Shown: piece after piece, positions 51,499 to 61,187 of the stretch
How positions within the stretch are numbered: the first letter of the stretch is position 1
How the letters are laid out: the number at the start of each line of letters is the position of its first letter
Assembly: GCA_949297445.1 (NCBI GenBank)
Contig: CASFSS010000004.1
Location: forward strand, 1 to 62,992
Length of the DNA stretch: 62,992 bases
Direction: 5' to 3'
DNA from: an uncultured bacterium
GTDB lineage: Bacteria; Bacillota_I; Bacilli_A; RFN20; CAG-826
Made by a program: the position numbers and the translations under genes
Notes under the pieces: generated by a model
What the model saw: the letters and a program-made list of their open reading frames with translations, nothing else
What the model was told of the DNA's origin: nothing
Database searches by the model: none

Positions 51499-52449
51499 TC
51501 ACAAAGGAAAAGTAGTTATATCTTCAGTTTCTAAATACTTTTTAAAATCAATTTCTTTAATTTCTAACTCCTCATACGTCGAGTAGTAAAATTTCATATT
51601 ATTCACATCAAATAAAGAAGTGTAAATTGTAATTTCAAAATTACCCGACGAGGCTTTGCACATTCCATTAGTTAAACTCATTGCATAAAAAATATGAAAA
51701 AGTTCTTTAACAATATTTGCCTTCGATAAATCAAATTTTAATAATTGAGATTTTAAATATGTAGAGCGAACGAAGCGTGATGGAGAGGATGGATCACCAG
51801 GCAAGCCACGCGCAGGAAGACCGACGCAAAATGAATCAAGATTATTTAATGTGGTAAAACTATTAACGTGAAATTCCGGAGAGATGTTTCCATACATTTT
51901 AATGTTATCTAAATGAAATGGAAATGAAGGATTGTTTGTTAAAATACCATAAGGATTGTCATATATTTTAATACCATCTTCGTTTGGTTCTATTACGATT
52001 GAAGATGTTTTATCCGCCAAAAGGAAGTGTAAATAACTAAGCGGCATATTTTCTTTAAATGGCTCTGCGACAAGACGAATATTTGTTAGGAGTGCTTTGG
52101 CTTCGTTAACCGTCTTGGCATTACCGAGCAAATAAAGAATTAGTTCGTAGGGAGCTAGATTAGTATTATCTTTCGTAGTATTAGGAAAATAATAAGCATT
52201 AGGAAAATAATTTAATCCAGCTATGCAAAGGCCACTTTCATTCATTGCTTCGGCATAAAGAGGATAACCATCCACCACTGTTCCGATACCAATTAAGGCG
52301 GTATCTAAAGTTATATTTGGCAAAAATTTGAAATTTATTACGTGGCGGCGCGGCACCACGATTGGCAGTTCACCAAAATGATAATCTAAATCGAGATTGC
52401 GGCCAAAATAAAATTGATCTTTATAATTGAATGTTAAAGCGAGACACAT
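51499..52449 (-). CDS. Choloylglycine hydrolase family protein (bile salt hydrolase-like)
   Basis: A 316-residue Ntn-hydrolase of the choloylglycine hydrolase/penicillin V acylase family. The nucleophile is Cys2, freed by removal of Met, with Arg17 and Asp20 in FGRNLDLDYHFGE, Asn near 172 in GILTNNPSFPFH and Arg near 225 in SPSRFVRS. The length fits bile salt hydrolases (about 317-330). It removes glycine or taurine from conjugated bile acids, or acyl groups from N-acyl amides, and probably acts in the cytoplasm as no signal peptide is seen. Presence of this enzyme supports a gut habitat. AAAGGAAGG precedes the ATG, with a TATAAT box nearby, so it has its own promoter after the ESCRT-like operon. 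Confidence 0.88.
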   Translation of the reverse strand: MCLALTFNYKDQFYFGRNLDLDYHFGELPIVVPRRHVINFKFLPNITLDTALIGIGTVVDGYPLYAEAMNESGLCIAGLNYFPNAYYFPNTTKDNTNLAPYELILYLLGNAKTVNEAKALLTNIRLVAEPFKENMPLSYLHFLLADKTSSIVIEPNEDGIKIYDNPYGILTNNPSFPFHLDNIKMYGNISPEFHVNSFTTLNNLDSFCVGLPARGLPGDPSSPSRFVRSTYLKSQLLKFDLSKANIVKELFHIFYAMSLTNGMCKASSGNFEITIYTSLFDVNNMKFYYSTYEELEIKEIDFKKYLETEDITTFPL

Positions 52450-52514: not shown

Positions 52515-55500
52515 TTACCTAGCGTAATATCCTATCAAAAGAACTATTCCGCAGATAATTAGGCAATTGAAAAGCCAATAAACAAAATTCCTAATGTTAA
52601 AATTCCGTTTCCAATGAATAGTTCTTAGCAAAAACGTCAATACAGTAAATACTAGTGGGTAAATAGCAAAATACTCGAATGGAAGATTAACAAAAATAGA
52701 ATTTGAAACAATTATACTTAGTGGGCTGGCATCAGGAAAAATTCCTAGTCGGCTTAAAATTAGCGGAATCCCTACCACCGTTATCGTAAAAAATAAGGCG
52801 GCAAAACCAAAACATATAAAAAATTTAGCTATATCTGTTCTCTTCTTGAAAAAATTGCGAGATTGAACAATTATGCAAATTGATGTAAACGGAATTAAAA
52901 ACACAACTAACAAATTAAATAAGTAAGAAACTGATGAATACCATACTGACGAATCAACATCTAGGTTAGCAGAGAAATATAGTAGATATAACATCAAATT
53001 TACAAAATAAGTAAAACCATACAAAACATCGCCTTCTTTAACGGTTTTAACGGATTTTTCAGCGTGCAATTTGCTGGCTTCCTCAATTTTTGTTTTGTAG
53101 TCATTCAAAACGGCATTAAAAGCATTTTTTAAATTGTCCTCTCCGTTATTAATTGTTGCCAAAAAGTTTAATGACTCTTTGGCATTAGATTCGAACAATG
53201 ATAAGTGCGCTTGTCGAATTGATTTAATTGTCGAAACCATTTCATTTTGATTATTTAAAAGCAATAATCTGAGGCTCATTATGTTGCTAGGAATATATTG
53301 AACATTTTCTTCGGAAGATTTAATTAAAATATTGTTATATAGTTCAACATCGTCACTATAATCGTCACCAATTAGCAAATCAAAATTTGTTCGTAAGTGC
53401 TTGTCGGCTTTTAATATGTTCCAATGCGTTCTATAATCGTCGATACCATTAGAGATCAATTCTTTTGAGAGTTGCATCGATAAATTATATTTTTTTAGCA
53501 TTAAAAGTTTTTCACTAAAATCTGTAACTTTATCATAAAAATAAGAATTATAAACATCTTCTTTTGTATACGCTTTTGCGTTCGGCAAAATCGATAAAAT
53601 TGAGGTAAACAAAAAATACGCGTTATTAACGTTTGTTTTGGAATATTTGATGCACATGTCAATCATTTGATTTATATAATTGTTTTGCTTATTTTTAATT
53701 TTGTAGCCACCGCTTAACATGTTTTCAATTGTTTCAATGATATAAGCGCATCGCTTTTTGCTTTTAAACAATGATGGAATGCGGGAATCGTCAGATATTT
53801 TGAAGCGTAAACACATCTTATTCCACAGTGCATCAGGATCTGCTTTAAATAATTCTAAAGCAAGGTTTTGATACCTTTCGCTTTCTTCAAAAAAGTATTT
53901 TTTACGGAAGGCTCTTGCGACACTATCGTAATAATTTATAACTCCTTTGGTACCAATTTGTGTTAAAACAGGGTAGATAGTTTTTGTTACATATTCAACG
54001 GCTGGGAGATGTTTTTTATTTACACAATTATCAATGTCATCAATCAATTTATTTATTATTAACTCTGTTAAATCCAACTCTGTTTTTGAATCAACATATT
54101 TCAATAATATGTTATACAAAGAGACACCGGCATTTAAAAATTGATTTATCGATGTTTTACACTGAGTTACTAAAATATTAAGTTTTTCGATTGCTACCGA
54201 TTCGGGAGCGTAACTGAAAAAATTAAAAAGCAGTTGAGATGCTTTTTCCTCGTCTATTAAGAATATATAATTTTTTAATGTTTCATCTAAAAAAGCTTGG
54301 TTATCACATAAGTAAAGATACCAATAAGCTAGATAGTTTTCTTCGTTTTGGGCGATAATAGAATTTAATGTTTTTCTTGCAGCATTAAAATATTCATTCG
54401 CCTTTCGCGCTTTAGAAATTGTCATAACGCCTTTTTCAATTGTTTGAAGGGCATTTGTTAACAAAATATCTTCACTTGGTTTAATGACAATTTTCTCTTT
54501 GCTGGCTCGAAAGCCAGTCTTTTCAATTTTTACTTCTGCGACGCTGATTGGTTTTACACTAACATTAACATCTTTTTCTTTAATGCTTGTTTTAATTCTT
54601 CTTTTAACATTATCTTTTAAAACTGAATTTAAATTTTTATAAAACGAAGGATCATAATTCAATGCTTGGAGTTTGGCTAATTTCGAAGGAAGGGATTCAA
54701 TTTTTATCTTATTTGATACAACGCTCACCATGGCGATATTGGAATTTTCTTCTTTTCGCTTTAAAAATCTAGTCCACTCATTTCTAACCCACGGGGCATT
54801 TATATAGTCAACATCGTCGGTACAAATTAATAAGAAAACACTAGCTGAATATAATGCATGATAGATAATTGGCTCATATTCACTGCCGGCCTTGCGCTTT
54901 AATGTTTCTTCGGAATAAAAGACACGGTATCCATTCTTTGATAAATAGTCATATATTTCACGAGCAATCTTGTCATCGGCTGTATAGCCTTTTTTGTCGA
55001 ACGTTTTGACTTTTAAAGAAATAAAAACATCATATGGTTCGTCATCGGAACACTTATCAAACGCTGCACTTCTTATTGCTTCAATTTGTGCTGCGCTTTC
55101 TTTGTAATTCTTTAAGGCTTCGCCTTTAGAATTAATGATTGCATTTTGATAATTTGCATTATTTAAACACGGATTTGGCGACAATCTATTAATAGTTGGT
55201 TTATTAAGCGTTACTCCGTCTTCATCGACATAAACTATTCCATAATCACAAAGAAATTTTTGAAAATAAATTTCTCCTAATACAGAATTGTTTTCTAACG
55301 CTTTTTTGTCTTTTAATAAACCATCAATTTCTTCTTCACACCTATCAAAATTTAAAGTGTTGCGCAATTCAATTATTTTTTCTAATTTCGCAATTAAATC
55401 GCCGTCATTAGAATCGAACTTTGGCAAAACAAAATCGTTATAACAGTGTTTGCATCGATAGACTCCTCTACCTAGCGATTCAAAAGGTCCTGGAGCACCA

Positions 55501-55523
55501 CATCTATTACATTTAAAATCCAT
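52515..55523 (-). CDS. Zinc-ribbon/TIR/multi-helix membrane protein
   Basis: A 1002-residue protein with an unusual build. Residues 4-30 are a zinc ribbon (CNRCG, then CKHC). A TIR domain follows at about 163-300, with YDVFISLKVKTFDKKG, the TADDKIAREIYDYL helix and NAPWVRNEWTRF, where the Glu near 249 matches the catalytic Glu of NAD+-cleaving TIRs. Residues 320-830 are helical, like a repeat solenoid (TPR-like). Residues 830-1002 hold about five to six membrane helices. It may deplete NAD+ when triggered or act as a scaffold that couples signal to membrane; both are inference. It ends the seven-gene operon with an SPFH protein, ESCRT-like subunits and two AAA ATPases, four bases from the BrxL-like gene. 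Confidence 0.8.
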   Translation of the reverse strand: MDFKCNRCGAPGPFESLGRGVYRCKHCYNDFVLPKFDSNDGDLIAKLEKIIELRNTLNFDRCEEEIDGLLKDKKALENNSVLGEIYFQKFLCDYGIVYVDEDGVTLNKPTINRLSPNPCLNNANYQNAIINSKGEALKNYKESAAQIEAIRSAAFDKCSDDEPYDVFISLKVKTFDKKGYTADDKIAREIYDYLSKNGYRVFYSEETLKRKAGSEYEPIIYHALYSASVFLLICTDDVDYINAPWVRNEWTRFLKRKEENSNIAMVSVVSNKIKIESLPSKLAKLQALNYDPSFYKNLNSVLKDNVKRRIKTSIKEKDVNVSVKPISVAEVKIEKTGFRASKEKIVIKPSEDILLTNALQTIEKGVMTISKARKANEYFNAARKTLNSIIAQNEENYLAYWYLYLCDNQAFLDETLKNYIFLIDEEKASQLLFNFFSYAPESVAIEKLNILVTQCKTSINQFLNAGVSLYNILLKYVDSKTELDLTELIINKLIDDIDNCVNKKHLPAVEYVTKTIYPVLTQIGTKGVINYYDSVARAFRKKYFFEESERYQNLALELFKADPDALWNKMCLRFKISDDSRIPSLFKSKKRCAYIIETIENMLSGGYKIKNKQNNYINQMIDMCIKYSKTNVNNAYFLFTSILSILPNAKAYTKEDVYNSYFYDKVTDFSEKLLMLKKYNLSMQLSKELISNGIDDYRTHWNILKADKHLRTNFDLLIGDDYSDDVELYNNILIKSSEENVQYIPSNIMSLRLLLLNNQNEMVSTIKSIRQAHLSLFESNAKESLNFLATINNGEDNLKNAFNAVLNDYKTKIEEASKLHAEKSVKTVKEGDVLYGFTYFVNLMLYLLYFSANLDVDSSVWYSSVSYLFNLLVVFLIPFTSICIIVQSRNFFKKRTDIAKFFICFGFAALFFTITVVGIPLILSRLGIFPDASPLSIIVSNSIFVNLPFEYFAIYPLVFTVLTFLLRTIHWKRNFNIRNFVYWLFNCLIICGIVLLIGYYAR

Positions 55524-55526
55524 ATC

Positions 55527-56951
55527 TTATTCTCCTTTGATTTTAAAAATTGGCATTTGAACTTTTTTATATTCTGTATCCAAAATTTGTAATTGATTTT
55601 TTATATCTTGTCGCATCATAACCGCGCGATTTAGACAATATGTTCGGAAAGCATTTATATCGACATCTTCAACACGACGGTAATGAGGGAACAATAATTT
55701 TAAATACGCTGTTGCAATCTTTTTTACTGCAGAGATGTCGCGCGTGTCACCATCTATTTCGCCAAGCAAATCATCGACAAGTTTACTATAAGTTGCATCA
55801 TCTCTTAATAAATGCAATATCTCGGTGAAATATTCACTATTCATCGATAAATCATTTACTTTCATTGATTCAGTCATACGAGGAATATCCCACCCTCTTA
55901 TAAATCCATGAACACGATCCAACAAGGCCGAATCCTGAAATAAAGAGGAAAGCTCTTGTACCATATTCTTGGTAGTATCCATGTTTTCTTGCTTGATATT
56001 TCCAAGAAAAACCAATCCAGCAGACGAGATATTCTTTTTATTTCCTACCGCGAATTCTCCATTCTCTAAATAACCTTTTAAGGCACCTTGTATTTCACTC
56101 AATTCGTTAAATTTAATTGTACCGATTTCATCGAGCGCTACGACATCATAACAACCAAGCAAGCCTATTGCGTGATTTTTCATGTCATAAAATAATTTTG
56201 CTCTAGTAACGATGCCACCAGAATTTAGCCAAACATATTTGGAAAGGCGAGAATAAACATACGACTTTCCCGTTCCCTTAGGGGCTAATTCAATGAGATT
56301 TACTCGCTTTTCGGCAAATGGCAAAAGACGAGAAATCATACAAAGACGTTCTTCGTCGCTTTTAAATGCTTCCGAATTATAATCCATTGCGCCTAAAATC
56401 AACGCTTCCCATTCGCTTAATGTAAAATGCTTTCTGGCTTCTATAAAATAATTAACATCTATGCGATATGGGCGGAAGGGAACAAACTTTTCCATATATA
56501 TTTTTCTTTGTTTGTTCAGCTGCAAGGTATTAATGGAAATAACTCCCCAGAAATCTCCATCTAGAAAAACATTTTCGCTTTTTATTGCTTGCCACGCATC
56601 ATCGCTAACAAGCGTTTGAGTAAAATCCACATCTAAATCTGGAAGCGCGAAGCAAACATAAGCCGCTTTCAAATTTATATTTATTTTAATTCTCGCTAAA
56701 AAAGTTTCCGTTTTGTTAGCCAAAACAATTTTATCTAAAATCAAGGGCCACGTTTCTTTGGTTGGTATTAATTGTTTTACTTTCTCGGCAATTAGTGAAG
56801 AATCGTAACTGCCATCTTGGTTTGAGTATCTTCTAATAAAATAATCACGAATATAACAAGGCAATGCTAGATGCGAAAAAAGGTTAGATGCTTGTTTTTT
56901 ATATAGCGACATTTCAGGAAAAAAAGTGAGCAGTTTATCTTTAATATCCAT
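55527..56951 (-). CDS. BrxL-like AAA ATPase without Lon protease domain
   Basis: A 474-residue AAA ATPase similar to the BREX system protein BrxL. The Walker A loop APKGTGKSYVYSRL lies near residue 221. The GGIVTRAKLFYDM segment, the CYDVVALDEIGTIKF Walker B region near 265, and NGEFAVGNKKNISSAGLVFL and DRVHGFIRGWDIP later in the chain match BrxL closely, as does FVPFRPYRIDVN upstream of the ATPase core. Typical BrxL continues with a Lon-like protease domain; here the chain stops at 474 residues and that domain is absent. No other BREX gene (pglX, pglZ, brxC) is present in the window. It lies between the MIT-AAA gene, two bases away, and the TIR gene. A role as a DNA or protein remodeller is possible. 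Confidence 0.8.
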   Translation of the reverse strand: MDIKDKLLTFFPEMSLYKKQASNLFSHLALPCYIRDYFIRRYSNQDGSYDSSLIAEKVKQLIPTKETWPLILDKIVLANKTETFLARIKININLKAAYVCFALPDLDVDFTQTLVSDDAWQAIKSENVFLDGDFWGVISINTLQLNKQRKIYMEKFVPFRPYRIDVNYFIEARKHFTLSEWEALILGAMDYNSEAFKSDEERLCMISRLLPFAEKRVNLIELAPKGTGKSYVYSRLSKYVWLNSGGIVTRAKLFYDMKNHAIGLLGCYDVVALDEIGTIKFNELSEIQGALKGYLENGEFAVGNKKNISSAGLVFLGNIKQENMDTTKNMVQELSSLFQDSALLDRVHGFIRGWDIPRMTESMKVNDLSMNSEYFTEILHLLRDDATYSKLVDDLLGEIDGDTRDISAVKKIATAYLKLLFPHYRRVEDVDINAFRTYCLNRAVMMRQDIKNQLQILDTEYKKVQMPIFKIKGE

Positions 56952-56953
56952 AA

Positions 56954-58396
56954 TTAAATCCCCAAATCATTGTCTTCAATCGGCGCTTGAACATTTATTG
57001 AAAAAGTTCCAACTAATTTGTTATCAAATACTTTTACTAAGTATTTTCCACTCTTTTCTAAGATAAATTCATTGCTCGTATAATTCTTTATATTTTTTGT
57101 CGTCGCAACTTTTTGGTTATTTACTTCTATATAAATTGATTGGTGTTCGCCGCTCAAATAGAATTCAACGGAATATTTATTGTTTGGATTAAGCATCAAA
57201 TTGGAATCTTTAACGATTATTTCTTCCTGCTGATCGTTATTCAAATCAACTGTTTTTGTTTCATTCATACCGATGTTCAAACCGGCATATTTTTCAAAAC
57301 GAGCAATATCAACAGTATTAATATTTCGTTTTATAAAAGCTATTTCATTGAAAAAATCTTTTCTTTCAATATTAACAACGTTATTTGTAGTAAAAGATTC
57401 CACCAGCGCTCGTTGTTTAGCACGGTCACATAAAGAAAATAAATCGGCGCCAGAAAAAGATTCAGTCTCTTTTGCTAATTCATCGATGTCCACATTTGAA
57501 TCAAGGGGCAAATCGGCTAAATATTTTTTTAATATTTCAACTCGGTCATTAAAATTCGGTAGCGGAATATATATCTTGCTCGAAAATCGTCCGCTTCGCA
57601 TGGCGGCAGAATCAATGTCCCATGGTTTATTTGTTGAACCCAAAATGAGCAAATTAGGATTTTTGCCAACAAAACCATCAATTTGCTGCAAAAATTCGTT
57701 CACACGTCGATCATTATGAATATCTTGCCCGCGCCCGGCAAACAATGTGTCCATTTCGTCTATAAAAATAATTGCACGATCATCTTTGCGAGCAGTTTCA
57801 AATAAGGAAGCGATATTTTTTTCTGATTCCCCGACCCATTTAGAAACAATGTCAGAAGAGCGGACTAAATAAAATTTTGCTTTAACTTCGTGAGCGACAG
57901 CCCTTGCAAGCATTGTTTTACCAGTGCCAGGAGGACCATATAATAAAACACCACCGCCGCTTTCTTTCCGATAAAGTTTATATTTATCTGGGTGGATAAC
58001 CGGATAAATCATTGCTATTTTTATTTCTTCTTTAGCGTCTTCTAATCCAATTACATCATCAAATGAAACGTTGGGAATTTCGACGCTATGCCACATTTTT
58101 TCATCCGAATCAGTGGAACTAACTGATTTAAATGTGTTAAATTTGCCTTCAGTGCTTGGACGAACATTTTGCTTTGTAACCTCTAAATTATCGGCGTACT
58201 CAATTAAACGATTGGCCTTATCTTGTCTAGTTTGTTTGAGCTCTGGTGTTGAAAGTTTGCTAGCAAGAAGAAGCTGTTTAGCTGCTAGATAATAATTTCT
58301 TTTGGCCAAATCAATTTTAGCGCTAGCCTCATATTTCTTTGCTAACGAAAAATAGCGGTCAAATTTCTCCATCAAAAAAGATAAATTATTATCCAT
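56954..58396 (-). CDS. MIT-like/AAA ATPase of the Vps4/spastin type
   Basis: A 480-residue AAA ATPase. Residues 8-75 read like an MIT three-helix bundle (AKIDLAKRNYYLAAKQLLLA, then TRQDKANRLIEYADNL), the module by which eukaryotic Vps4 grips ESCRT-III tails. A linker leads to the ATPase core, with VSFDDVIGLEDAKEEIK, Walker A YGPPGTGKTML near 153, SDIVSKWVGESEKNIASLF as in Vps4/katanin, Walker B IIFIDEMDTL near 210 and the arginine finger region MRSGRFSSKIYI. The last 100 residues are a beta-sheet domain (NNKYSVEFYLSGEHQSIYIE) not present in Vps4. It probably disassembles polymers of the two coiled-coil neighbours. It overlaps the preceding gene by eight bases. Confidence 0.82.
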   Translation of the reverse strand: MDNNLSFLMEKFDRYFSLAKKYEASAKIDLAKRNYYLAAKQLLLASKLSTPELKQTRQDKANRLIEYADNLEVTKQNVRPSTEGKFNTFKSVSSTDSDEKMWHSVEIPNVSFDDVIGLEDAKEEIKIAMIYPVIHPDKYKLYRKESGGGVLLYGPPGTGKTMLARAVAHEVKAKFYLVRSSDIVSKWVGESEKNIASLFETARKDDRAIIFIDEMDTLFAGRGQDIHNDRRVNEFLQQIDGFVGKNPNLLILGSTNKPWDIDSAAMRSGRFSSKIYIPLPNFNDRVEILKKYLADLPLDSNVDIDELAKETESFSGADLFSLCDRAKQRALVESFTTNNVVNIERKDFFNEIAFIKRNINTVDIARFEKYAGLNIGMNETKTVDLNNDQQEEIIVKDSNLMLNPNNKYSVEFYLSGEHQSIYIEVNNQKVATTKNIKNYTSNEFILEKSGKYLVKVFDNKLVGTFSINVQAPIEDNDLGI

Positions 58397-58976
58397 TTTT
58401 TTCGTTCCTAATCTTGCCGTCTAAGGTTTGTAAAATATTATCTAAATCATCAGATTTTTCGTCTAAATTAATTTCTTCATCAATCAATGACATAATTTCT
58501 TCATTAGATACGTCGGGCGTTTCCCCAATCGAAGAGAAAGAATCTTTTGAATCTTCTAAAAACAATTCAACTCGTTCTTTTTGTTTTTCGGTCGACATCA
58601 TGGCAAGACCAAATTGCTTTGCAACTTTGCTAAATTGTCGATCGTCTGTCAATTTAACCATGTCTTTTGATAATGTCTTCATTCCTTCAAGAAATTCTGA
58701 GGTTGTTTTTAGCATATCCTTTAGCGAAATCATTATTTCAAAATTAATTTTCATTTCGCGAATTTTCTTCTCTTGCGCCATCGCGCTTTTTAAGGCTGAA
58801 ATAGCCAAATTAAGTTCATTTGGCAAACCATGTTTTTTTGCTTCTTTGGCTTTTTCAATGTAGATGTTTTTTTGTTCTTGCAACACTTTTAACTGTTTGC
58901 CCATTTCATTGACAGTCTTTTTAAGCGTAATCTTCTTTTCAAATTCTTTTGTTTCTTTGCTTTTAAATATTTGCAT
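58389..58976 (-). CDS. ESCRT-III/PspA-like coiled-coil protein with MIM-like tail
   Basis: A 195-residue charged helical protein. It starts MQIFKSKETKEFEKKITLKK, then long helices (LNLAISALKSAMAQEKKIRE and EFLEGMKTLSKDMVKLTDDR), and an acidic C-terminal region with NEEIMSLIDEEINLDEKSDD. The order of basic helix hairpin, hinge and acidic tail follows Snf7/ESCRT-III proteins. The end DDLDNILQTLDGK has the LxxxLxxL spacing of the MIM1 motif that MIT domains bind. The partner gene next to it encodes an MIT-like AAA protein. The start was set at 58976, where GAGG lies eight bases upstream; the longer frame to 58997 would overlap the neighbour by 35 bases. Resemblance is by eye; profile searches are needed. 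Confidence 0.65.
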   Translation of the reverse strand: MQIFKSKETKEFEKKITLKKTVNEMGKQLKVLQEQKNIYIEKAKEAKKHGLPNELNLAISALKSAMAQEKKIREMKINFEIMISLKDMLKTTSEFLEGMKTLSKDMVKLTDDRQFSKVAKQFGLAMMSTEKQKERVELFLEDSKDSFSSIGETPDVSNEEIMSLIDEEINLDEKSDDLDNILQTLDGKIRNEKNG

Positions 58977-59550
58977 TTTTTTCGCCCTCTTCGCCAAATT
59001 GTTCTTCGTTTAAATCCTCGCCTTCTTCAAACATAGCAAGTAGTTGATCATCATTTTTATTTATTCCGTATATTCTCTCGTCAGGCGAGTATGAATCTTT
59101 TATTTGATTAAAGATATCATCTGCGCTGGTCATGATTTCTTCGCTCTTAATCCTAGTTTTCAAAATTTTATTCAAAAACTGAGCTAAATTCTTTTGGTCT
59201 CCCAACAACTCTTGAAGCGAAACACCGCTGGCCGAAGTGACGAATTCTTTATCTTCCATTGCATCTTTAAGTTGCTTTAAAAGTTGGGTGTTATACATAA
59301 TATAAAGACTTCGTTGCAATAGATTTTGTTGATCACTTTTTAAAGCATCAATTTTTTTAGCGTACAATAAACGCAACTGACGATTGGTCTCTTTCTTTCC
59401 CTTTTCAAACAATTCTTTTTCTTCGTTGCTTTTGCTGACAATTTCTTCTTCAAGCGACTTTAATCGGCTATCTAAACTAAGCAAAGCGTCCAATACTTCT
59501 TCTCGACGCAAAGTTTTAAATTTATTTTTCTTAAATGGCCAAAATGACAT
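58963..59550 (-). CDS. Second ESCRT-III/PspA-like coiled-coil protein
   Basis: A 195-residue helical protein of similar size and order to its neighbour. It begins MSFWPFKKNKFKTLRREEVL, a basic start like those of Snf7 and PspA, followed by long heptad-rich helices (LDSRLKSLEEEIVSKSNEEK and RQLRLLYAKKIDALKSDQQN), a hinge region with ASGVSLQELLGDQ, and an acidic end (LLAMFEEGEDLNEEQFGEEG). It may co-polymerise with the other coiled-coil protein on membranes. A clear MIM1 motif was not seen here. The end overlaps the next gene by 14 bases and the start follows AGGT, nine bases after the small helical gene. Confidence 0.6.
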   Translation of the reverse strand: MSFWPFKKNKFKTLRREEVLDALLSLDSRLKSLEEEIVSKSNEEKELFEKGKKETNRQLRLLYAKKIDALKSDQQNLLQRSLYIMYNTQLLKQLKDAMEDKEFVTSASGVSLQELLGDQKNLAQFLNKILKTRIKSEEIMTSADDIFNQIKDSYSPDERIYGINKNDDQLLAMFEEGEDLNEEQFGEEGEKNANI

Positions 59551-59558
59551 AAAAGTAC

Positions 59559-59900
59559 CTAGAATTCTTTTCTTAATTGTTTTCTTCTGGCTATTTGCAT
59601 GCGCAGTTCATCACACAAATTAGTAATTTTTTTATTGTCTAAATCGTTATCTTTAATCGCCTTATTTGCCGCTAGCAATAAGTCATCTAAAGATGATTGA
59701 ATTTTATTGTCGAGTTTGCTGCTTCCAGCAACGGGAACAAAATATTTAATAGTTTCGCCAAAAGATAAAAGCACTTGTTTTATTTCGGCGTTTTTATCGC
59801 CAAGCACATTTAAAATTACATCAATCGTCGATAGCATTGAGTCAATGCGGTTTTTTGCATCGACTTCTTTGTCATATTCTGTCTTTCTACTAAAAATCAT
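59559..59900 (-). CDS. Small helical accessory protein
   Basis: A 113-residue protein with a basic N-terminus (MIFSRKTEYDKEVDAKNRID) and two or three amphipathic helices (SMLSTIDVILNVLGDKNAEI, SSLDDLLLAANKAIKDNDLD, ITNLCDELRMQIARRKQLRK). No family is recognised. The position between an SPFH gene and the coiled-coil genes, within tight spacing (9 and 14 bases), indicates a dedicated subunit. The two-helix build with a charged end could be a capping or adaptor piece in an ESCRT-III-like filament. GAGGG before the ATG serves as the Shine-Dalgarno. Confidence 0.65.
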   Translation of the reverse strand: MIFSRKTEYDKEVDAKNRIDSMLSTIDVILNVLGDKNAEIKQVLLSFGETIKYFVPVAGSSKLDNKIQSSLDDLLLAANKAIKDNDLDNKKITNLCDELRMQIARRKQLRKEF

Positions 59901-59914
59901 TTTTAATCCCTCGC

Positions 59915-61045
59915 TTATTGAACTTTATGGCCACAATACGGACAAAACGTTACATCGGCAGGCAATTCTTTGTGACAATTTGGACACGTAGTAGTTGCAT
60001 ATTTTTCTAGTTTCCCACCGTCTCTAGGACAAAATTGAATATCGCCCACATATTTTGCCTTACAAATAGGACAAATCTTCTTTTCTCCTTTTGCGACAGC
60101 TTTTTTTGCCTGTTTAGCGGTTGCTTTTGGTTGACCGCCATCAGTCGGCCAGCCCAATATTTTCAGCACTTCAAAATATTTGTCGCGATCTTGGCTCTCT
60201 AGTTGACGCAAAATTTTATTGCGCTCAAATGCCTTATCGGATAAACGCTCAAGTTCCGCCGCAATCTCCTTAGCATCTTTTTTATCTTCACGCTTTTTAT
60301 TGATGCTATGTCTTCTTTGCTCAAGCATATCAATCTCTTCATTCAATGGGGAAATATTCCCAACAACAAACGAGCATATTTCTAGTCCGTAATCCTCGGC
60401 GAAAATTTTTGATAAACTTTCTTTTATCGATGCGGCAATTTCTAACTTGTACATGCTAATTTCATCGAATGATATATGATTCTCTTTGATGGTTTTGTAC
60501 ACGACAGGTTCAGCTTCTGAAACAAGGCGACCGAGCAATCTATTTTGCAAATCACTAATTGTAAAGTTTTTGTCTGAACCGACTAATTCGGCATAAAATT
60601 TGCGCGGATTAGAAACTCGAACTTCAAATTCTCCATAAGCCCGAATATGAATGAGTAAATCGGTTAATTCGTCACGAAAACTAAATGGGTCGGGCGTACC
60701 CCAATAAACGCGTAGTCTAGCAGTTTTACTAATAAAGACTAAATCAACACTAACAGCACCTACTTTTTGGGTTACAAGACCGAATAACTTTTTCTTTTGC
60801 TCAAAAATAGGATAACGTCCACCATGCAATTCATCCATAAACATACCATCTTTTACATAAATTACTGTATGTGTTTCTGGAACTATAATTTCTGCATTTG
60901 GGTTCAAAACATCAGCTTGAAATCTCCAAAATAGCGCGTTATTATCGCCTTCAAATTTAATATATCTTAAATTCTTAGCGCTTTTTTCGGAAATTTGTTC
61001 AATTTCATCTGAACCATTTTCCAATTTTGTTACCTTTTTACTCAT
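59915..61045 (-). CDS. SPFH/Band-7 protein with two C-terminal zinc ribbons
   Basis: A 376-residue protein of the SPFH (stomatin/flotillin-like) superfamily with the YdjI-type build, known in Bacillus as the partner that recruits PspA to membranes. The SPFH domain covers about 45-240 (AEIIVPETHTVIYVKDG, then GTPDPFSFRDELTDLLIHIR). A coiled-coil with QRRHSINKKREDKKDAKEIA follows to about 310. Two zinc ribbons close the chain (CPICKAKYVGDIQFCPRDG and CPNCHKELPADVTFCPYCG). There is no membrane helix, so it may sit on membranes by its SPFH domain. It heads the operon, directly behind the promoter with the C tract. AAAGGAGG lies upstream of the ATG. Confidence 0.87.
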   Translation of the reverse strand: MSKKVTKLENGSDEIEQISEKSAKNLRYIKFEGDNNALFWRFQADVLNPNAEIIVPETHTVIYVKDGMFMDELHGGRYPIFEQKKKLFGLVTQKVGAVSVDLVFISKTARLRVYWGTPDPFSFRDELTDLLIHIRAYGEFEVRVSNPRKFYAELVGSDKNFTISDLQNRLLGRLVSEAEPVVYKTIKENHISFDEISMYKLEIAASIKESLSKIFAEDYGLEICSFVVGNISPLNEEIDMLEQRRHSINKKREDKKDAKEIAAELERLSDKAFERNKILRQLESQDRDKYFEVLKILGWPTDGGQPKATAKQAKKAVAKGEKKICPICKAKYVGDIQFCPRDGGKLEKYATTTCPNCHKELPADVTFCPYCGHKVQ

Positions 61046-61155: not shown

Positions 61156-61187
61156 ATAGTACCCCCCCCCCCCCAGCTTCTTGTCAA
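61156..61187 (-). promoter_or_regulatory. Promoter with poly-G spacer for the SPFH-TIR operon
   Basis: On the minus strand TTGACA (61187-61182, consensus -35) is followed by AGAAGCT, 13 G and then TACTAT (61161-61156, -10). The spacer is 20 bp. The usual optimum is 17 bp, which would need 10 G. Slippage of the G run would therefore set promoter strength, as in known phase-variable promoters with spacer homopolymers. The predicted start of transcription is near 61149 and gives a leader of about 100 bases ending in AAAGGAGG. Confidence 0.75.
61162..61174. repeat. Homopolymer of 13 C
   Basis: An uninterrupted run of 13 C in very AT-rich surroundings. I saw no other G/C run near this length while reading the window. 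It sits inside a promoter spacer, where length changes have a direct effect. Confidence 0.95.

Follow-up and report, generated by a model that had tools for sequence, protein, structure and literature searches.

A bacterial operon that combines predicted ESCRT-type proteins with a TIR-domain protein

The DNA studied here, hereafter called the window, comprises 62,992 nucleotides of contig CASFSS010000004.1 (assembly GCA_949297445.1) from an uncultured gut bacterium of the order RFN20. At 52515-61045 it contains an operon of seven genes, all on the minus strand. These code, in this order, for an SPFH protein with zinc ribbons, a small helical protein, two coiled-coil proteins (CC1 and CC2), an AAA ATPase with an MIT domain (MIT-AAA), a BrxL-type ATPase and a protein combining a zinc ribbon, a TIR domain and transmembrane segments (Table 1). 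Judged from its sequence, the operon is interpreted as a bacterial membrane machine of the ESCRT (endosomal sorting complex required for transport) type joined to an immune-type effector, a reading to which we assign a probability of about 0.6. Within this reading, the ESCRT-type machine is highly probable, and a defence triggered by damage stands slightly below even odds.

CC2 is, by sequence comparison, an ESCRT-III homologue, because a profile match, Pfam matches to Snf7 and a C-terminal motif all point to this family. An alignment of 38 CC2 relatives matched a eukaryotic ESCRT-III profile (A14; six sequences, that of CHMP2A being identical to PDB 7zcg over residues 8-154) in hhalign with 90.5% probability and an E-value of 1.4e-6 over 144 columns. 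For CC2 against the MIT profile, a helical control, the probability was 19.7%, and against CC1 it was less than 1%. Pfam Snf7 matches 21 of the 38 CC2 members (best E-value 6.1e-6) and is the top family by member count; when ten members were taken singly, five matched it at E ≤0.05, collinear through most of the model and under the Pfam cut-off. The C-terminus of the window copy carries a MIM1-like motif, LDNILQTL. The corresponding pattern LxxxLxxL occurs in 34/38 CC2 tails, compared to a mean of 5.5 in 2,000 shuffles (standard deviation 2.1, maximum 12), a count that is inflated by kinship of the sequences, with the pattern also kept in most of the divergent members. The AlphaFold2 model of CC2 has a pLDDT of 80.7 and helices at residues 7-48, 52-110, 113-146 and 158-194. 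Foldseek placed CdvB, CHMP2A-CHMP3, Asgard ESCRT-IIIB and CHMP1B amid other helical proteins, at E ≥0.4. VIA-align was rejected as support for CC2, as Shrub/Snf7 and Vipp1 appeared among mixed helical matches with Z around 10, the noise range for helical proteins. A Pfam search for Snf7 in the host's own genome gave no match.

CC1 resembles ESCRT-III by predicted fold only, and the assignment is confined to this level because the profile comparison finds nothing. Its AlphaFold2 model is weaker (pLDDT 63.6), and the top nine PDB matches in Foldseek are all ESCRT-III proteins (CdvB2, Asgard ESCRT-IIIB and CdvB; probability up to 0.98, E-values 0.07-0.27), with CHMP3, IST1, PspA and Vipp1 lower in the list. 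The CC1 family shares a conserved C-terminal LLAMFE motif (alignment A12). Snf7 is not among the Pfam families listed for the CC1 set, and PspA_IM30 is absent from those listed for both the CC1 and the CC2 set. The preliminary description of this DNA had suggested that the coiled-coil proteins are ESCRT-III-like, a suggestion that is supported for CC2 by profile, Pfam and C-terminal motif and for CC1 at the level of a low-confidence fold model. A possible Chloroflexota cousin of the operon was found on a plasmid of Candidatus Chlorohelix allophototropha (NZ_CP128401.1, locus L104, 653-2455), where genes for a pair of short helical proteins, the leading one at 1-633, precede those for an MIT-AAA and a kinase-WD40 protein. 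The CC1 profile matched the first of these proteins weakly (E-value 9.9e-5 in a three-sequence search).

The ATPase encoded next to CC2 matches Pfam AAA (PF00004, 3.6e-39) and AAA_lid_3, and features a Walker A motif (GPPGTGKT, 154), a pore loop (KWVG, 186) and a Walker B motif (IIFIDE, 209). It carries a predicted N-terminal MIT domain: Pfam MIT matches 8 of 20 N-termini of the family (best 3e-5; window 0.028), and matches of this region in the PDB include MIT domains from archaea and humans as well as TPR proteins. CdvC is the best NCBIfam model (219 bits, under its cut-off of 650), and the AAA domain stands equally close to p97 D2 (211 bits) and CdvC (210 bits). Sequences of CdvC and VPS4 served solely as search queries. 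Orthology with Vps4 or CdvC was considered and rejected, a tree sampled without euryarchaeal Vps4 placing the protein outside the Vps4/CdvC clade. The Vps4/ESCRT-III pairing proposed earlier thus stands in part: an MIT-AAA is encoded beside ESCRT-III-like CC2 and CC1, but on this tree it is not a Vps4 orthologue. In Clostridia, the ATPase is about 690 aa long and consists of an MIT domain and two AAA domains, and the copy of locus L070 has a CbxX-type lid (AAA_lid_6) instead. A C-terminal extension of about 80 residues in the window, L010, L026 and L027 looks beta-rich by eye, perhaps Ig-like.

The arrangement of the genes is compact, with intergenic spacing of at most 14 bases or short overlaps. 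Gaps of 14 bases (SPFH/small protein), 8 bases (small protein/CC1), 2 bases (AAA/BrxL) and 3 bases (BrxL/TIR) and overlaps of 14 bases (CC1/CC2) and 8 bases (CC2/AAA) were observed. CC2 starts with ATG at 58976; a longer form of its open reading frame begins at an upstream TTG (58997). The one-strand operon of the preliminary description was therefore recovered with all open reading frames in place, and its domain assignments (SPFH with zinc ribbons, AAA, BrxL-like, zinc ribbon-TIR-membrane protein) hold in Pfam, NCBIfam and PADLOC.

All seven genes recur in unchanged order at locus L010 of genome G091, which belongs to a different family of the same order. Identities between the two loci range from 33% for the small protein (34% pairwise) to 73% for CC2, with 61% for SPFH and 67% for BrxL. 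The core of SPFH, small protein, CC1, CC2 and AAA keeps a constant order across about 50 loci in Bacilli and Clostridia. Because the full set is repeated in G091 and the core in about 50 genomes, the operon represents more than a chance neighbourhood. A neighbourhood check thus agrees with the earlier proposal that the seven genes travel together, but the exact set was seen in two genomes only, BrxL being absent from the other loci. The distribution is patchy. A CC2 profile search found matches in 14/279 genomes of the order, 10/395 of the class and 9/392 of the phylum, whereas G001 and G002, the two congeners, gave none. From GTDB genomes, a scan yielded 36 loci, mainly from uncultured Clostridia and some from Bacilli.

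Association of the SPFH protein with the core is near-universal among the operons. The window copy shows Band_7_1 (E-value 6.4e-21) and two zinc ribbons (Zn_ribbon_15 and DZR in Pfam). For the small helical protein of the window, no Pfam family was found above threshold. In L066, L074 and L085, members of its recurring family, SML, carry a membrane segment at the N-terminus. In L030, L036/L037, L052/L053 and L054, the SML and CC1 regions appear by eye to be fused in one open reading frame.

Around this core, partner modules are swapped among loci: TIR, zinc-ribbon trypsin-like protease, leucine-rich repeats, BrxL, and vWA/PP2C/kinase genes. The TIR protein is a common partner, in L090 bearing leucine-rich repeats of the BspA type; the core is present without it in L033, L036/L037, L050/L051 and L052-L054. 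The protease occurs in 17 loci (Trypsin_2, 9e-26). In L050 and L051, the core is flanked by putative vWA-, PP2C phosphatase-, kinase- and RCC1-type genes (sequences inspected by eye), and these surroundings recall ESCRT loci of archaea, where kinases and phosphatases are likewise encoded. A gene for a lipoprotein-like product of about 600 aa follows the TIR gene in L010 (3391-5214), L026 (3088-4881) and L027 (13659-15452) and is not present in the window; its product matches no Pfam family.

The TIR protein of the window matches TIR_2 (2.1e-11), has CxxC pairs at 5 and 24 in a zinc-ribbon-like N-terminal region and about five hydrophobic segments at its C-terminus (859-1002). The candidate catalytic Glu lies in VFYSEETL (from residue 201), whose FYSE motif we read as aligning with the Glu motif of bacterial TIR domains. 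Of 35 domains, 26 retain this residue, or 21 of 30 after removal of duplicate contigs. The Thoeris ThcB4 model scored far below its cut-off. The BrxL protein matches BrxL_ATPase (3.1e-105), BrxL_N (6.4e-16), TIGR02688 (above cut-off) and the PADLOC BrxL model (561 bits), and has Walker A (GTGKS, 226) and Walker B (VVALDE, 270) motifs. Among the approximately 50 loci, BrxL is limited to the window and L010, and the operons of L026 and L027 lack it. Since it is found in just two loci, BrxL is an add-on and not part of the core. The earlier proposal that ESCRT-like genes are joined to a TIR protein and a BrxL-like ATPase is thereby upheld for TIR as a common partner, but not for BrxL as a regular one. 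Membership in BREX was rejected: PglZ was not found in the whole genome, and the operon contains no BREX genes besides BrxL.

Upstream of the operon, a tract of 13 G between TTGACA and TACTAT starts 129 bases before the SPFH start and is the sole G/C run of at least 8 in the window. With 10 G, the promoter spacer would measure 17 instead of 20 bases. Similar layouts were observed in L028 (57 bases upstream of SPFH, TTGACA-N6-G8 followed by a TATTAT-like box) and L086 (TTGACA-AAA-G9-TAGACT-TATAAT, about 50 bases before SPFH). Runs of at least 7 G or C number 12 in 811 kb of loci; at that rate, 32 upstream regions of 330 bases each would hold about 0.16. The tract may act as a phase-variable promoter switch for the operon; the G13 could also possibly be a homopolymer assembly error. 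More G or C tracts in promoter-like layouts with TTGACA lie near other genes in L010 (3033-3053), L067 (9094-9110) and L080 (17746-17764).

A defence or damage-response role is favoured because of the patchy distribution, the swappable modules and the possible phase-variable promoter. Based on homology, the SPFH protein would form a membrane-bound scaffold that recruits CC1 and CC2, which would polymerise on the inner membrane face. The MIT domain of the ATPase would grip the MIM1-like tail of CC2, and extraction of subunits would remodel or reseal the membrane. Gene linkage suggests that the zinc ribbon-TIR protein sits in the membrane beside the polymer. Damage, for example by phage entry or lysis proteins, might lock or overload the polymer and thereby switch on the TIR domain, which would then consume NAD+ or make a signal, leading to cell arrest. 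BrxL would serve as an optional extra ATPase at two loci, and slippage of the G tract could toggle the operon on and off. In its fullest form, this model describes a true ESCRT-III and MIT-AAA pair as a widespread accessory module of Bacilli and Clostridia, a phase-variable damage sensor that fires TIR or protease effectors against phages; we advance this version tentatively, with the chances somewhat against it.

Several results speak against the interpretation as an ESCRT-type machine with an immune-type effector. Taken alone, CC1 and CC2 of the window remain below Pfam thresholds, hhalign gave no significant match of CC1 to CC2 or to eukaryotic ESCRT-III, and the Foldseek E-values of both models are 0.07 or worse. 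In a tree that lacks euryarchaeal Vps4 and takes its reference rows from PDB alignments, the AAA proteins form their own group (support 95/87) outside the sampled Vps4, CdvC and Cdc48. Some TIR domains have P, D, K or Q in place of the Glu and may be inactive. Degenerate-pattern scans based on the AAA pair and on CC2 found no relatives among viral contigs, a comparison of CC2 with phages and plasmids gave no match, and in those flanks of the operon that the window covers Pfam revealed nothing resembling a defence island. The missing island and the missing phage or plasmid carriage are rated as neutral to negative.

Of the other explanations, an envelope-stress or membrane-repair machine fares best, although we consider it unlikely. 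According to this proposal, the polymer acts with the ATPase to reseal the membrane or keep it stable, in the manner of PspA/YdjI in Bacillus, and the TIR and zinc-ribbon proteins are scaffolds or sensors that do not kill. It would account for the TIR-free core loci, for the several TIR domains without the Glu and for the vWA, PP2C phosphatase and kinase genes of L050/L051, which look regulatory, and it has a precedent in the link of SPFH with PspA in Bacillus subtilis YdjI (PMC10936438). However, patchiness and exchangeable modules are atypical of housekeeping repair, and most TIR domains keep the catalytic Glu. A role in cargo sorting or vesicle production, in which the SPFH-zinc ribbon protein and zinc-ribbon adaptors pick membrane cargo that the polymer buds off, would make the operon a bacterial counterpart of the archaeal Meth_adaptin ESCRT and is improbable. 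Many partners are indeed zinc-ribbon proteins, and in Meth_adaptin systems (PMC10936438) Vps4 and ESCRT-III likewise occur together with an SPFH protein that has a coiled coil and a zinc ribbon. However, Pfam identified neither a cargo protein nor an adaptin appendage domain, and sorting leaves TIR and BrxL unexplained. Least probable of all is a reading without ESCRT, in which a Cdc48-like unfoldase serves coiled-coil proteins of a generic kind. The equal AAA scores against p97 D2 and CdvC, the separate AAA clade, CC1 without sequence support and Foldseek E-values above 0.001 would allow it; against it, the CC2 profile match, the Snf7 matches, the MIT domain, the MIM1-like tail and the CC1 fold agree independently.

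The operon looks new as a bacterial ESCRT-type system because the 2024 survey of Makarova et al. (PMC10936438) confines systems of Vps4 and ESCRT-III to archaea and eukaryotes. The archaeal Meth_adaptin ESCRT of that survey shares a Vps4-type MIT-AAA and ESCRT-III, along with an SPFH protein that bears a coiled coil and zinc ribbons. In contrast, the operon reported here is bacterial, has no winged-helix or adaptin domains found by Pfam, and belongs to a family that adds TIR, trypsin-like protease, leucine-rich repeat and BrxL modules. In the CdvB/CdvC division system of Thermoproteota, the ESCRT-III gene also immediately precedes the MIT-AAA gene, and the CC1 model resembles CdvB2; the operon differs in having no identified CdvA, an AAA outside the CdvC clade and an accessory, patchy occurrence. 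Bacillus YdjFGHI (PspA-SPFH) likewise links a zinc-ribbon SPFH to a protein of the ESCRT-III superfamily, whereas the CC1 and CC2 sets have no listed PspA_IM30 match and the operon features an MIT-AAA. Vps4-like AAA proteins in bacteria were reported by Ravi et al. 2024 (PMC11237479), who describe snf7 displaced by a TPR/6TM protein and some PspA/Snf7-AAA operons. Where Snf7 is present there, it has a transmembrane segment and transporter partners, and the text consulted describes no set of SPFH, two ESCRT-III-like proteins, MIT-AAA and TIR. The BrxL protein matches short BrxL over its full length, although the operon is not BREX and the genome lacks PglZ. What the operon has in common with TIR defence proteins (Thoeris, SpbK) is a TIR domain bearing the Glu motif of bacteria, here combined with a zinc ribbon, transmembrane segments and ESCRT-type partners. 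No description of this gene set was found in the open-access literature; subscription papers and most preprints lie outside this scope, and a recent report could exist. Together with about 50 relatives, the operon places a pairing of ESCRT-III and MIT-AAA in Bacilli and Clostridia, which is relevant to the origin or spread of the ESCRT machine. Should the TIR and protease partners prove to be effectors, the operons would represent a defence strategy that senses the state of the membrane via an ESCRT-type polymer.

Table 1 Genes of the operon and candidate promoter, with positions in the window
Feature	Position	Strand	Basis
SPFH protein (Band_7_1), C-terminal coiled coil, double zinc ribbon, 376 aa	59915..61045	-	Pfam
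Small helical protein, 113 aa	59559..59900	-	Recurring family SML, no Pfam family
CC1, 195 aa, ESCRT-III-like by fold	58963..59550	-	AlphaFold2 and Foldseek
CC2, 195 aa, predicted ESCRT-III/Snf7 homologue	58389..58976	-	hhalign, Pfam Snf7 in relatives, MIM1-like motif
MIT-AAA ATPase, 480 aa	56954..58396	-	Pfam AAA, AAA_lid_3, MIT
Short BrxL-type AAA+ ATPase, 474 aa	55527..56951	-	BrxL_ATPase, BrxL_N, TIGR02688, PADLOC
Zinc ribbon-TIR-helical-transmembrane protein, 1002 aa	52515..55523	-	TIR_2, CxxC pairs, hydrophobic segments
Candidate phase-variable promoter	61156..61187	-	TTGACA - 7 nt - G13 - TACTAT, spacer 20

In one congener, synteny with the window ends at an endonuclease gene, two genes from the position of the operon. 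Past this break, the window continues with a gene for a choloylglycine (bile salt) hydrolase and then the operon. The hydrolase gene (51499-52449) adjoins the operon, and its best congener matches, from two genomes, are just 39% identical.

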